Shown: piece by piece, positions 41,510-47,258 of the stretch
Layout: every line of letters starts with the position of its first letter
Position numbering within the stretch: the first letter of the stretch is position 1
Assembly (NCBI GenBank): GCA_902802905.1
Contig: CADCNT010000006.1
Span: 1-64,000 of the forward strand
Direction: 5' to 3'
DNA from: an uncultured Erysipelotrichaceae bacterium
Lineage (GTDB): Bacteria; Bacillota_I; Bacilli_A; RFN20; CAG-826
DNA length: 64,000 bases
Translations under genes and position numbers: made by a program
Notes under the pieces: model-generated
What the model was told of the DNA's origin: nothing
The model's database searches: none
What the model saw: the letters and a program-made list of their open reading frames with translations, nothing else

Positions 41510-42853
41510 TTAGATTCCTACCCATGGAAGCGCCATAATAATCACCAACGCTAGAGCGATAGTAGGAATAGAGATAATTGCTCCGTGTCCGACAAATTGA
41601 GTAAACGAGAACTTAACATCGTTCTGTTTTAATATCTTCATGAACATAATTCCTGCTAAGGAACCGATTGGAGTTAATAATGCACAAATGTTACTAGATG
41701 CTACAGTAGCGTAAGCATATGGATAGAAAGCAGGATTTGCAATATTACCAGCAGCATCAACCCAAGAGAAATCATGAAGTGTTGTGGTAAACATCATTGT
41801 CATCGGAATGTTATTAAGTAAGTTACCTAGACCAAATGAAATAGCGCCAGTCACCATCATGTGATTGCCTTGTAAGAATGTTGCAAATTCACTAATAAGT
41901 CCAGAATTTGACAAAGTCACGATAAATACCGACATAGAAAGAAGGAATGGCGCTAGTGAATATGGAAGTCCTGCTAAAGATTTCCAAATGATAGTGAACT
42001 TTTCTTTCTTTGCTAATAAACAAATGATGATAGCGATGTAAGTAGCTCCAGCACACACTAGGGGGATATACCAAAGTTCTACTCCTGGGATGTAGTTAGA
42101 GACCGCCATAAAGAGAACCATAACCGCTAAACCTGTAACGCCAATTGTGAGTAATTGCTTGTCTGGTTTAATGATTTCAACATCATCGATATTAATCTTT
42201 TCTTTAAGTTGTTTTCTGAACATGAAATACACCAAGAATGTTGAAAAAACCCCACAGACCGCGGTTGGAATGGCCATGACCGCTGCATATTCTAAGAAGG
42301 AAATACCGAATGTGGTGCATAAGTAAATGTTGGTTGGATTATCAATAAAGAAGAACATGCTCCACACATTTGCACACACGAATTCAGAGATGATATATGG
42401 AATAGGATTGATTTTCGCATTCTTAGAGAAATAACAGATAAATGGAGTGAATGTTAAGATCAAAATATCGTTTGAAGTAAAGATAGTGAGAATAGCGATG
42501 ATTGCGCTAAAAGAGAAAAACAATTTGGTTTGACTACTCTTGTTTTTACTTAAGATAACTGCCGCAATATAAGAGAAGAAACCAATCTTATCTAAGAGTA
42601 CTGAAATACTGGTGCATGATATAAATATCACCAAGATTTTAAGCGGGTTAATATTAGCGTCATTTAAGAAGATGTCTTTAATCGGATTTTGGCCAGCAAA
42701 GCCACAACACAAACAAACGATGGCGCCCACCAAACAAAAAACCCAATAAAGAGCGAATGAAACTTTTTTAATTTTAATCTTCCAATCAAGAGCGATTGCA
42801 AGAATCATCAATATTAATGAGATGCCAACAATAATTAACGCTGCAATGTTCAT
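41510..42853 (-). CDS. ArsB/NhaD-type anion permease
   Basis: A 447-residue membrane protein with about 11-12 helices of the ion transporter (ArsB/CitM) superfamily. Typical segments are TSNDILILTFTPFICYF and the mirrored NLLNNIPMTMMFT in the second half, the paired re-entrant motifs with N-D/N-N-P. The exported or imported ion (arsenite, citrate, other carboxylate) cannot be decided. The ATG at 42853 has TTAGGA 7 nt upstream and is preferred over the in-frame GTG at 42877. Confidence 0.82.
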   Translation of the reverse strand: MNIAALIIVGISLILMILAIALDWKIKIKKVSFALYWVFCLVGAIVCLCCGFAGQNPIKDIFLNDANINPLKILVIFISCTSISVLLDKIGFFSYIAAVILSKNKSSQTKLFFSFSAIIAILTIFTSNDILILTFTPFICYFSKNAKINPIPYIISEFVCANVWSMFFFIDNPTNIYLCTTFGISFLEYAAVMAIPTAVCGVFSTFLVYFMFRKQLKEKINIDDVEIIKPDKQLLTIGVTGLAVMVLFMAVSNYIPGVELWYIPLVCAGATYIAIIICLLAKKEKFTIIWKSLAGLPYSLAPFLLSMSVFIVTLSNSGLISEFATFLQGNHMMVTGAISFGLGNLLNNIPMTMMFTTTLHDFSWVDAAGNIANPAFYPYAYATVASSNICALLTPIGSLAGIMFMKILKQNDVKFSFTQFVGHGAIISIPTIALALVIIMALPWVGI

Positions 42854-42965
42854 ACGATTTCCTAAAAACAATAACACACAAGTGATGAAAAATCACTTAT
42901 TCTTTATGGTAAATCTCATAACTATGTTATAAGATATAAGAAACAAGTTTGCGCAGGTGACATTT

Positions 42966-44612
42966 ATGGCAGAAGAAGTTAAGACTGAAATTTTAGAAGA
43001 CAAATATTCGCCTTACAAAGGATCACATCCATTTGTTTTTATTAGCTATTCTCACGATGACAATATTGAAAGAGAAGGGCTCATTGATAACGTTATTCAT
43101 GGATTGATTGATAAGGGATATCGTGTTTGGTATGACGCTGGTATTCATCATGGTGAATGGTCACAACAAATCGATTCCAAAATGGATGAATGTTCTGCTT
43201 TTGTTGTCTTCTTATCTCCTAACTCTGTTGCCAGTAAATATGTTAATAGAGAAGTTTTCTATTACTGCAATAAACCTGCAGAAAAGAAAATTACTTTAAT
43301 CCCAATTTGGATTGATAAACCTGTTCCAACTCCAAAGGCTTTATCTTTGATTTTGGATGTTTATCAAGTTTTGTTTAACGATATTAAAGAACAACCAACA
43401 GTCAAACAATTGGTTGATAAATTAACATCAAAACACGAAATTCCAAGTCAATGTAAAAATGATCTTGAAGTGGAAGACGGTGTTGTCTCTAATACCCCAT
43501 TAGATTGTACCGATTTGAATTTATATAGTGGCATCAAGGAAGTTGCTCCAGGTGCATGTAAAGACAGAATTGAGTTAGAAGAACTCACTATTTCTGATAC
43601 AGTGGTTAAACTTGGCGCTGAAGCATTTAGAGGCTGTAAAGTTCTTAAAGAAGTTAAGATTCCCGGACCTCTTGAAAGCATTGGCGATAGCTGCTTTAGG
43701 GATTGTATCGAAATGCAAAAACTCATTATTTATGATCGTGTAGAAATCGGCGAAAGAGCATTTGAAAACTGTAGCAAATTATCTGAAATTATTCTTTCTG
43801 ACCAATTAGAAGAAATTTCTAATGGTGTATTCAATTCCTGTAAATCATTAGTTAGTTTAAAACTTCCGGCTAACCTAGTTGCTATCGGCGATAGTGCTTT
43901 TGCTAGCTGTGACAAATTAAAGACAATTGAGATTCCTTCTGGATGTACTCGTATTGATGATCTCGTTTTTGCTGGCTGTATCAATTTAGAGAAAATTATT
44001 ATTCCTAACACAGTGACAAGAATTGGCAAAAACGTCTTCAAAGATTGTAAAAAATTAAAAGAAATCTTTATACCTGCGAGTGTTAAAAAGATGGATCCAG
44101 GTTGTTTCAGAGGCTGTGCTTCTTTAGAAAAAATTGAAGTAGATGAGAATAACCCATATTTTAGAGATGTTGATGGCGTTCTCTTTGGCTTATCTCTAGA
44201 TAGAATTATTGCCTATCCAGCAGGAAAGAAGGCTGAAGATGGTGTGTTTAGATTACCTCCATCAGTTAAAACTGTTGAAGACTGGGCTTTTGCAGATTGC
44301 CAATATTTGCAAGAAGTTAAAATGGAACGTGGTGTTGAAAAGATTGGCGAAGGTGCTTTCTATAACTGCGACAAGATTAAAAAGATTGTTCTTCCAAACA
44401 CTACTAGAGTTATCCAAGATACAGCGTTTAGAGGCTGTGACAATTTAGAAGTGTTCGTATTAAAGAGTGACTCCTTATCCGAGTTTGGATGGGGCACATT
44501 GTATGGCTGTTCCAAAGTCAAAATTTACGCTGACGCACCTAAAGTTGTTAAGTATTGCAAGACCTACGATCTTGAAAGATATGAATTAAAAGAATACGAC
44601 CCAAATAAATAA
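42966..44612 (+). CDS. TIR-domain protein with BspA-type leucine-rich repeats
   Basis: A 548-residue intracellular protein. Residues about 22-140 form a TIR domain (FVFISYSHDD, YRVWYDAGI, GEWSQQI, AFVVFLSPNS, KYVNREVFYY, LIPIWID). Residues about 185-540 hold about 12 LRR_5 (BspA-type) repeats with the pattern AF-x-x-C-x-x-L-x-x-I-x-I-P. There is no signal peptide, unusual for BspA repeats, which are mostly extracellular. By eye, the position of the NADase glutamate of SARM1-type TIRs is His61/His62 here, with Glu64 nearby, so enzymatic activity is uncertain. The ATG at 42966 has AGGTGA at 6 nt. Translationally coupled to the next gene. Confidence 0.88.
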   Translation: MAEEVKTEILEDKYSPYKGSHPFVFISYSHDDNIEREGLIDNVIHGLIDKGYRVWYDAGIHHGEWSQQIDSKMDECSAFVVFLSPNSVASKYVNREVFYYCNKPAEKKITLIPIWIDKPVPTPKALSLILDVYQVLFNDIKEQPTVKQLVDKLTSKHEIPSQCKNDLEVEDGVVSNTPLDCTDLNLYSGIKEVAPGACKDRIELEELTISDTVVKLGAEAFRGCKVLKEVKIPGPLESIGDSCFRDCIEMQKLIIYDRVEIGERAFENCSKLSEIILSDQLEEISNGVFNSCKSLVSLKLPANLVAIGDSAFASCDKLKTIEIPSGCTRIDDLVFAGCINLEKIIIPNTVTRIGKNVFKDCKKLKEIFIPASVKKMDPGCFRGCASLEKIEVDENNPYFRDVDGVLFGLSLDRIIAYPAGKKAEDGVFRLPPSVKTVEDWAFADCQYLQEVKMERGVEKIGEGAFYNCDKIKKIVLPNTTRVIQDTAFRGCDNLEVFVLKSDSLSEFGWGTLYGCSKVKIYADAPKVVKYCKTYDLERYELKEYDPNK

Positions 44613-45139
44613 TGGAACTTGAATACTATTATTCAATACTATCAATTTATGATACATATTCCAGCGAGAAGATACTCGTTGGTTTATTTTGGGGTAGAAA
44701 TTTAAAAGAACTAGCGTTAGATATTTTGAACTTTTTTGAACCTATGCTCAGAAGCGCGACTCAAGATTTCAATAAAGTCTATAACAATCATTTAGACTAC
44801 GATAGCAAAGACTTTTATACACAGTGTGTGCAACATGGTTTTCAAGTCGCTCCAATCATCGCGTTAAAAGACAAACTTAATAGTGGCAAAGAGTTAACAA
44901 TGAATGATTTCAAATCTATAGATTTCTTCCAATTTTATGATGGCTCTCAACATGTTGTGTTTTCTCGAATCCCAGAAAGTATCAGAGACCTAAGAGATAT
45001 CTGTGCTTCCACAGCGGATGAGTTTGGTTTTTATGATGATTTACCGAGTGATTTTGAATTAGAAATTAGTGAAGAAAAAATCATCACTCCATTCTTCGAT
45101 TTGACAAAGAAGTGGAACGCAGCGCATTATTCGAAGTAG
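44612..45139 (+). CDS. Unknown protein coupled to the TIR-LRR gene
   Basis: A 175-residue soluble acidic protein that I do not recognise. Its ATG shares bases with the stop of the TIR-LRR gene (TAATG), and no separate ribosome-binding site is seen, so the two are made together, often a sign of partners in one complex. Sequence is rich in Phe, Tyr and Asp, mostly helical at the start (NLKELALDILNFFEPML) and with no membrane segment. Followed at once by a strong terminator. Confidence 0.72.
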   Translation: MELEYYYSILSIYDTYSSEKILVGLFWGRNLKELALDILNFFEPMLRSATQDFNKVYNNHLDYDSKDFYTQCVQHGFQVAPIIALKDKLNSGKELTMNDFKSIDFFQFYDGSQHVVFSRIPESIRDLRDICASTADEFGFYDDLPSDFELEISEEKIITPFFDLTKKWNAAHYSK

Positions 45140-45161
45140 CAACCGATTTGGTTGCTTTTTT
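45138..45161 (+). terminator. Terminator of the TIR-LRR operon
   Basis: 7-bp stem AGCAACC / GGTTGCT, 5-nt loop, then TTTTTT; it overlaps the stop codon. Confidence 0.88.
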
Positions 45162-45207
45162 CTTAATAAAGTTTTTTGAGATTTTCTTTATATAAATTCT
45201 CGAATTT

Positions 45208-45213
45208 TATATA
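45208..45213 (+). promoter_or_regulatory. -10 box of gdpP operon
   Basis: TATAAT, 11 nt before the gdpP ATG; no Shine-Dalgarno between. No clear -35. Confidence 0.45.
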
Positions 45214-45224
45214 ATGATTACACT

Positions 45225-47258
45225 ATGAAAAAGAAGATTAGTCGTATCCGTTTTATCGCTTTCCTTATCATTGTCTTTGAAATCTTAGGGATTGCGGCAT
45301 TTACAATTTTTTATTTCCTTAACTTATTTCACACCAAAGATGTTCTTAAAGTTGAATATGTCATCATTGGTGCTGCGGCATTAGTTTTACTTAATGTTAT
45401 CTTCCTATGGGTTTCCGCAGTGAGAATTTCTTTGTTTAGACATAAAACCGATTTAAAAGCTGCTGAAGTTATTGGTAGTGATGTGCAAGAAGCTTATAAC
45501 TTTGCGATGATTGGCTTAGTAGTCACTGATGATAATGACATTGTTATTTGGGATAACTCTTTATTTAAAGATCGTCACATCGATATCATTGACTCCAACA
45601 TTTTTGATTGGCAGCCGTCTTTAAGAGAACTCAAAGAAAAAGGTTCTCCTGATGAAGTGGCTAAGACCATTATCAATAACCGTAACTTTGAAGTTAAGTT
45701 TTTAGCGGACGCTGGTCTTTGGATTTTTAAAGACACAACAGATTACGAATCAATTTACGCATATAGCAAACAACAAGCTCCTGTCGTTGGCATTCTTTCC
45801 ATGGATAACTATGACGAAGTCATTAAAGGTGATGAAGACTATAACGACACGATTACTAAAGCAAAAGATGTTATCTTTGACTATGCGCAAAAATATGGCA
45901 TCTTACTTCGTAAATTCAAAGATAGTAATTATTTAATGCTTTTTAACTATGAAACCTACTCCAAGATTAAAGACGATAATTTCTCAATCGTCGATAAAGT
46001 TAGAGAAGTTTCATATGGTGAAGATATTCCTCTTACCTTATCCATCGGTATTGCTAGAGACTTCCCAGATGTCGTTAAGCTTAATGAACTCGCAAATGCG
46101 GCGTTAAGTATCGCGATGAGTAGAGGCGGCGACCAAGTCGTTGTTTCCGTTTACGGAAAAGAAATGGAATTCTATGGTGGTAAAACCGAAGCTCAAGAAA
46201 AGAGAAGTAGAGTTAAAATCAGAGTTCTTGCTGACTCTCTTATCAACTTAATTAAATCTGCCTCTAACGTATTAATCATGGGCCACACTAACATGGACAT
46301 GGACGCATTAGGCAGCTGTTTAGGTGTAAAAGCCATTTGTGAAAGAGTAAACATTCCTGCTCGATTGGTCGTGGATTTAAAAGCTACCGAAAATAAGACT
46401 AGAGCGGCAATTACATCAAGCTTTACCAAAGAAGAACTTGAAAAGTTAATTGTTAATAGTAAAGATGCGATTGGGATGATTCAAAGCGACACACTAGTGG
46501 TCGTTTGTGACGTCCATATTCCAAACATGGTTATGGCCCCATCAATTTTAGATCACACCAACAAGATTGTGGTTATTGACCATCATCGACGTGCTGAAGA
46601 ATATATTGAATCTCCAGTCTTTAACTATATTGATCCATCAGCATCTAGTGCTTCTGAACTTATTACCGAATTCATTAGATTCTCATCAATTTCTCCACGT
46701 ATTGAACTTAATTCAACTTACGCGACCATTATGTTAGCGGGTATCTTCCTTGATAGCTCATTCTATAAGAATAAGAACACTGGTATCCGTACTTTTGAAG
46801 CATCCACAATTCTTAAAGAATATGGGGCTGATAACTCCGCCGCTGATGATTTATTGAAAGACGACTTTGAAGAATATTTAGAGACTACTTCTATCGTTAG
46901 CAAGATGATTACTGCTGACTATGGGGTGGTTTATGCAGTGTGCGATCCAAATAAGATTTATGACACAGCCGCTATTGCTAAAGCTGCTAATGCATGTTTA
47001 GGTATGAAAGGAATTCATGCTGCCTTTGTTATTGGCAAAACAGGCGCTAGAGAGTGCAAGATTTCTGCACGTAGTGATGGCTTAATCAATGTCTCATTAT
47101 TATGTGAAAAATTAGGTGGTGGTGGACACTTTACAAGTGCTGCCGCAACTTTCTTAAAGAGTGACATCAAGGAAGTGGAAAAAATGCTTCTTAATGTTAT
47201 CACTCAACATTTAGCAGAAGCTAAGAGTGACGCCGCTAAAAGAGGGGCTGGTGAATAA
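45225..47258 (+). CDS. gdpP: c-di-AMP phosphodiesterase GdpP (DHH family)
   Basis: A 677-residue membrane protein: two N-terminal helices (about 8-30 and 39-62), a PAS-like region, a degenerate GGDEF domain (the signature region reads SRGGDQVVV), then DHH (MGHTNMDMDALGS, VIDHHRR) and DHHA1 (LGGGGHFTSAAA) catalytic domains. GdpP hydrolyses c-di-AMP to pApA and so sets potassium and cell-wall homeostasis. The order gdpP-rplI-dnaB is conserved in Firmicutes. First gene of the operon. Confidence 0.95.
   Translation: MKKKISRIRFIAFLIIVFEILGIAAFTIFYFLNLFHTKDVLKVEYVIIGAAALVLLNVIFLWVSAVRISLFRHKTDLKAAEVIGSDVQEAYNFAMIGLVVTDDNDIVIWDNSLFKDRHIDIIDSNIFDWQPSLRELKEKGSPDEVAKTIINNRNFEVKFLADAGLWIFKDTTDYESIYAYSKQQAPVVGILSMDNYDEVIKGDEDYNDTITKAKDVIFDYAQKYGILLRKFKDSNYLMLFNYETYSKIKDDNFSIVDKVREVSYGEDIPLTLSIGIARDFPDVVKLNELANAALSIAMSRGGDQVVVSVYGKEMEFYGGKTEAQEKRSRVKIRVLADSLINLIKSASNVLIMGHTNMDMDALGSCLGVKAICERVNIPARLVVDLKATENKTRAAITSSFTKEELEKLIVNSKDAIGMIQSDTLVVVCDVHIPNMVMAPSILDHTNKIVVIDHHRRAEEYIESPVFNYIDPSASSASELITEFIRFSSISPRIELNSTYATIMLAGIFLDSSFYKNKNTGIRTFEASTILKEYGADNSAADDLLKDDFEEYLETTSIVSKMITADYGVVYAVCDPNKIYDTAAIAKAANACLGMKGIHAAFVIGKTGARECKISARSDGLINVSLLCEKLGGGGHFTSAAATFLKSDIKEVEKMLLNVITQHLAEAKSDAAKRGAGE

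Follow-up and report, generated by a model that had tools for sequence, protein, structure and literature searches.

The locus analysed here raises the question of which gene its TIR-LRR protein works with. TIR and LRR modules combine in plant and animal immune receptors, and in most of the bacterial TIR systems described, the TIR protein is accompanied by an NTPase or by an effector that senses nucleotides. In the window, by which we mean the whole stretch of 64,000 nucleotides, a preliminary description of the sequence had proposed that the TIR-LRR gene and a gene for an acidic protein of 175 aa, directly downstream, form an isolated two-gene unit and a candidate for an undescribed system. 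As outlined below, the TIR-LRR gene does belong to a conserved gene pair, but the acidic protein did not hold as its partner, and the conserved neighbour is a divergent transporter gene that starts 112 bp upstream. The relevant features, in coordinates of the window, are:

41510 to 42853, minus strand: ArsB-like/IT-superfamily secondary transporter gene, start probably ATG at 42853, reading frame open to GTG at 42877
42854 to 42965: intergenic region shared by the two divergent genes, 112 bp from start codon to start codon
42966 to 44612, plus strand: TIR-LRR gene, 548 aa, reading frame open to GTG at 42957
44612 to 45139, plus strand: 175-aa orphan gene, translationally coupled, its start overlapping the TIR-LRR stop as TAATG
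44661 to 44682, plus strand: terminator-like hairpin with a T-run, inside the 175-aa gene close to its start, a consensus match only
45138 to 45156, plus strand: terminator-like hairpin 3' of the 175-aa gene, a consensus match only

The TIR-LRR protein and its downstream neighbour

The TIR-LRR protein consists of a TIR domain (residues ~20 to 140), a linker of about 30 residues and about 15 BspA-type LRRs (residues ~170 to 525). Pfam recognised TIR_2 at residues 24 to 131 (E 2.7e-16) and LRR_5 in the BspA-type region (E 2.4e-80), and found no nucleotide-binding domain, nor an NB-ARC, NACHT or STAND NTPase between the TIR domain and the repeats. By reading, the protein has no signal peptide or membrane segment and is cytosolic-looking. 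In a structure model, the repeats are 23 residues long, with strands at positions 183, 206, 229 and onwards to 519, and the LRR part matches the fold of BspA-type structures; the TIR part was poorly modelled (pLDDT 30 to 50, from an alignment of three sequences). The domains listed in the preliminary description, a TIR domain and BspA-type repeats without a nucleotide-binding domain, are therefore present, but the strands of the model give about 15 repeats and not about 12. Its comparison with a minimal NLR-like sensor fits as an analogy only, since the protein lacks an NTPase switch and its number of repeats is fixed across lineages.

The TAATG overlap between the TIR-LRR and 175-aa reading frames is indeed seen in the sequence, and the codon usage of the 175-aa frame is coding-like (+0.12, versus -0.09 to -0.45 for spurious ORFs). 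The two genes had also been assigned a common terminator, and a hairpin is found at the expected place, 3' of the 175-aa gene, but the second hairpin weakens the case for a shared end: since it lies inside the 175-aa gene, the transcripts of the two genes need not end at one place. This inner hairpin may lower the expression of the 175-aa gene relative to that of the TIR-LRR gene.

Relatives of the 175-aa protein were found neither in the genus (19 genomes) nor in the order (279 genomes), and none were found in viral contigs, plasmids and phages, where the lone phage match had an E value of 0.9 over 23%. Searches of Pfam, PADLOC and NCBIfam with the protein returned nothing above noise, and its structure model was of low confidence (pLDDT 63) and without a fold match. 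In the genome G178, a Fic/RhuM-like gene (by reading) is located 3' of the TIR-LRR gene instead of the 175-aa gene, which is also absent from this position in all eight Clostridia loci described below. The slot directly upstream of gdpP (~44612 to 45225 in the window; loci L213-L230) contains differing genes across species of the genus, and no relative of the 175-aa gene occurs at this site in congeners. Given the lack of homologues in the genomes, viral contigs, plasmids and phages searched and the variability of this slot, we rejected the 175-aa gene as the TIR-LRR partner, and it probably lies outside the core system. The preliminary description had named conservation of the partner beside TIR-LRR homologues as a test of its proposal, and there the 175-aa gene is not conserved.

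Linkage between TIR-LRR and transporter genes

The product of the divergent gene matches the Pfam families ArsB (PF02040, 1.7e-26) and CitMHS (PF03600, 1.6e-28) and passes both gathering scores (94 bits versus 22.2, and 100.2 versus 31.9, respectively). The NCBIfam ArsB models, however, gave 103 to 157 bits, far under their cut-offs of 415 to 760, including scores of 131.7, 157.3 and 149.4 bits against a cut-off of 457. A relative in the PDB is 10tp (ArsB; E 1.3e-35), and no ars genes were seen beside the transporter gene. Judged by these profiles, the protein is an ArsB-like carrier of the IT superfamily and not a certified arsenite pump. It has no extra sensory domain, and recognisable homologues exist without a TIR-LRR.

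The first two relatives of the TIR-LRR protein, from Clostridia MAGs (L016 and L017), were 41% and 40% identical over their full length. Both genes are preceded by an ArsB/CitMHS-type transporter gene whose product is 42% and 41% identical to the window transporter, and each of the three genomes contains exactly one such transporter. In a sample of 297 genomes from the Clostridia order, full-length TIR-LRR proteins were detected in seven (E<=5e-288), a count that may be too low because 3 to 4 candidates were scored per genome in the large scans; the next match (5e-85) covered the LRR only. The transporter was present in 78 of these genomes (E<=1e-60). All seven TIR-LRR genes have the orientation of the transporter gene and lie directly 3' of it (eight of eight when G612 is included), with a gap of 14 to 62 nt after the transporter stop and a ribosome-binding site that is mostly of the GGAG type. 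A TIR-LRR gene of this family without the transporter was not found in the 297 genomes, and since the transporter occurs in 78 of them and the TIR-LRR in seven, the transporter must be able to work without the TIR-LRR.

The seven loci represent six unrelated chromosomal sites with differing neighbours, by reading alpha-amylase, thrS, 5'-nucleotidase-like, glyS, helicase-like and gyrB/dfrA genes. Two close pairs of loci aside, the transporter and the TIR-LRR are the sole families that the flanks have in common. Among the 3' neighbours of 67 analysable transporter genes, a set in which several contigs break off near the transporter, only the TIR-LRR gene recurs more than three times (8 cases). 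About 390 genomes of the class outside this order contained no further full-length TIR-LRR, and the viral homologues were LRR-only matches. Reading of ~5 kb around the nine loci showed mostly housekeeping genes and no obvious defence islands, and an integrase-like gene (by reading) is located near locus L092. A defence role of the pair is possible, and the flanks lend it no contextual support.

In the lineage of the window, the transporter is likewise common (143 of 273 genomes). In the transporter tree, the window copy groups with its sister from G178 and with the G007 copy in one small branch, and this branch correctly predicted the presence of a TIR-LRR. The G178 gene for a full-length TIR-LRR (E 2e-187) lies 230 bp from the start of a contig, and the transporter gene of this genome starts 195 bp from the end of another. 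This arrangement fits a broken divergent pair, but without an overlap of the contig ends the adjacency in G178 is not proven. G007, which belongs to the same genus as the window, encodes at a contig edge a C-terminal fragment, 75 residues long, from a TIR-LRR of the pair's family, with the signature QDTAFRGC...GWGLF..C...YC, 55 bp tail-to-tail from the transporter gene. The tandem and divergent orientations are thus seen intact and the tail-to-tail orientation by a fragment. A search with a three-sequence profile in the phylum sample of this lineage was flooded by LRR proteins and revealed no other full-length member.

GCGAAACGCATGAAA is found upstream of the G178 transporter gene, and its reverse complement recurs upstream of the G178 TIR-LRR gene (the last 250 bases of L189 and the first 260 bases of L209); it might be an operator common to both genes or a dispersed repeat.

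As a control, we considered other TIR and LRR_5 proteins, G178:C35 (601 aa), G014:C14 and G014:C34. In these genomes the transporter is located on other contigs, indicating that the linkage is specific to the TIR-LRR family described here. Genes for TIR and LRR_5 proteins of other subfamilies, away from an ArsB-like transporter, were noticed at L210:5428-7230 (-), L014:779-2656 and L015:1-1881. The genomic coupling is family-specific and occurs in two distant lineages of gut bacteria, and it is the TIR-LRR that depends on the transporter, not the reverse. Based on gene arrangement and sequence comparison, the TIR-LRR and transporter genes very probably constitute one functional unit.

The pairwise identities of the two proteins in ten genomes were strongly correlated (Mantel r 0.95, 0 of 20,000 permutations), which fits joint inheritance, although species descent would also give such a correlation. 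Between the two lineages, identity is higher in the LRR (42 to 50%) than in the TIR domain (27 to 31%), as would follow from binding of the LRR to a conserved partner; within Clostridia, by contrast, the TIR domain is the better conserved part. The length of the LRR is near constant (a gap in 13 of 385 columns), a feature that does not resemble a diversifying pathogen sensor and would agree with a fixed binding partner. When the window and G178 are compared, the transporter is 73% identical and the TIR-LRR 47%, indicating that the coupling is looser there or that another pressure acts on the TIR-LRR. A possible TIR domain swap in the window lineage was considered: in the TIR tree, the domains of the window and G178 stand apart from the Clostridia members, but with weak support (0.54).

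A possible mechanism and its rivals

The NADase activity of AbTir requires S140, D167, and E208 of the C-helix WxxxE motif, and the W240A substitution in TcpC has no effect (PMC11374754). We aligned the TIR domain with 7uwg, which we take to be AbTir since F138, S140, D167, W204 and E208 all fit one offset, and found that S140, D167 and E208 correspond to S27, D57 and E96 of the window protein. D57 and E96 are invariant in 10 of 10 homologues, and S27 is invariant in the homologues (A3) and also present in the G178 sequence. The NADase glutamate, which the preliminary description had found not obvious, pointing to Glu64 nearby, is thus Glu96 in this alignment. The WxxxE tryptophan (AbTir W204) is replaced by Y92 in the window protein and by His in G178, so that NADase activity is not assured, and AbTir R151 is not conserved. 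Overall, the putative NADase site is competent-looking.

In the mechanism that we propose, the two genes would encode a module of two halves, the TIR-LRR in the cytosol and the ArsB-like transporter in the membrane. The fixed LRR fan would dock on the transporter, or on one state of it, and thereby hold the TIR domain silent, with the caution that neighbouring genes can share a pathway without their products binding each other. When the transporter is blocked, its gradient collapses, it is bound by a product of an invader or it is overloaded with substrate, the TIR domains might cluster and cleave NAD+, and the output could be either a cell-arresting drop in NAD+ or an ADP-ribose-type signal. 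Such a guard or regulator would be analogous to an LRR-type guard receptor, minus the NTPase switch. We put the probability of this mechanism as a whole, in which the TIR-LRR is a guard or regulator that depends on the transporter and has NAD+ cleavage as its output, at roughly 45%; the linkage was observed, and the mechanism is what we infer from it. That the pair is a categorically new two-part immune or stress module of bacteria, in which a cytosolic TIR-LRR receptor guards, or is gated by, a secondary membrane transporter without an NTPase switch, is a tentative suggestion. On this reading, the TIR-LRR would be a guard receptor in a prokaryote, and the transporter from its own operon would be the guardee.

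The pair could also serve housekeeping, with the TIR-LRR tuning the ArsB-like transporter in metalloid, anion or Na+/H+ homeostasis, and the TIR domain acting as an NAD+-dependent signal or a scaffold. The transporter is common and mostly occurs alone in both lineages, the loci lie amid thrS, gyrB and glyS-type genes and the LRR length is fixed, all of which suits such a role. Nevertheless, a routine regulator would not be expected to be as rare and patchy as the TIR-LRR, which moreover retains its NADase residues and in the window lineage diverges fast compared to the transporter, so we regard this explanation as rather doubtful. Distinctly less probable is a defence system with the transporter as its effector, the LRR sensing infection and the TIR domain making an NAD+-derived signal that opens or deranges the transporter, so that the ion gradient collapses. 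Nucleotide-signal immunity is known to combine TIR proteins with membrane effectors, and in Clostridia the transporter and the TIR-LRR share one operon; yet as a secondary carrier this transporter is ordinary and widely conserved, has recognisable homologues that lack a TIR-LRR and carries no extra sensory domain, and the invariant repeat number of the LRR does not resemble that of a diversifying pathogen sensor.

If the TIR-LRR and transporter genes merely hitch-hiked together, without joint function, as a mobile or transferred cassette, their patchy spread over two distant lineages and the integrase-like gene near L092 would be accounted for. However, they are found in at least seven genomic contexts and in tandem, divergent and tail-to-tail orientation, no other gene recurs with them, and the transporter phylogeny tracks its own lineages, unlike a recent cassette, which makes hitch-hiking very improbable. 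We give the least credence to a functional pair of TIR-LRR and 175-aa protein, for example an effector and its immunity protein. The TAATG coupling, the 3' hairpin and the coding-like codon usage would agree with such a pair, but not the lack of a homologue in the genomes, viral contigs, plasmids and phages searched, the missing gene 3' of the TIR-LRR in G178 and all eight Clostridia loci, or the variable slot upstream of gdpP in the genus.

If the conserved operon of a TIR-LRR and a secondary transporter functions as proposed, it would represent a new logic, namely immune-type surveillance or control of a transporter. In addition, the ArsB-like carrier provides a concrete, testable partner for a protein that one would otherwise assign to an orphan pair with the wrong gene.

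Comparison with known TIR and LRR systems

Several other TIR proteins were noticed in related genomes. G000:C4 (L193:7036-8613, plus strand) encodes a 526-aa protein with the unusual architecture of a TIR domain and, by reading, a C-terminal GNAT acetyltransferase; a TIR-GNAT relative is present in G014 (L013:1471-3045), so that this architecture is common to two species of the genus. A 290-aa protein of G000:C3 (L192:8741-9610, minus strand) has two TIR-type domains in tandem, the first of which is divergent. Finally, G004:C4 (L196:7011-9920, plus strand), of the same genus as the window, encodes a TIR protein of 970 aa in which a P-loop NTPase (GVGKT) and helical repeats can be read, as in a TIR-NACHT/STAND-type bacterial NLR.

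In the open-licence literature, we found no description of a bacterial TIR-LRR with a transporter. The closest relatives of its TIR domain that we compared are the bacterial NADase TIRs AbTir, TcpC and Thoeris ThsB, which by sequence belong to the same TIR_2 family; the equivalents of AbTir S140, D167 and E208 are present and invariant here. In contrast to these proteins, the TIR domain is fused to a BspA-type LRR fan, and the Trp of the WxxxE motif is Tyr or His. The likeness to Thoeris is confined to weak ThsB profile matches in the TIR domain (8.9e-7 in PADLOC, 4.1e-5 in Pfam), and by reading none of the nine loci has a ThsA (SLOG/Sir2)-like neighbour. Thoeris, TIR-SAVED and other PADLOC systems were ruled out, their matches being weak and at the level of the TIR domain only.

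The transporter belongs with the ArsB family and IT superfamily (PF02040, PF03600), above the Pfam cut-off for ArsB but below those of NCBIfam. In their LRR fold and repeat type, the TIR-LRR proteins resemble the BspA-type LRR surface proteins 4gt6, PcpA (4cp6) and TpLRR (6mlx); these are surface or secreted proteins, whereas the TIR-LRR has a cytosolic-type TIR N-terminus and, by reading, no export signal. Like TIR-NB-LRR receptors and bacterial TIR-STAND/NACHT proteins, the TIR-LRR combines TIR signalling and an LRR-type recognition module in one protein, but it does so without the nucleotide-binding oligomerisation switch, and with an LRR of the bacterial BspA/TpLRR class whose repeat number is fixed.
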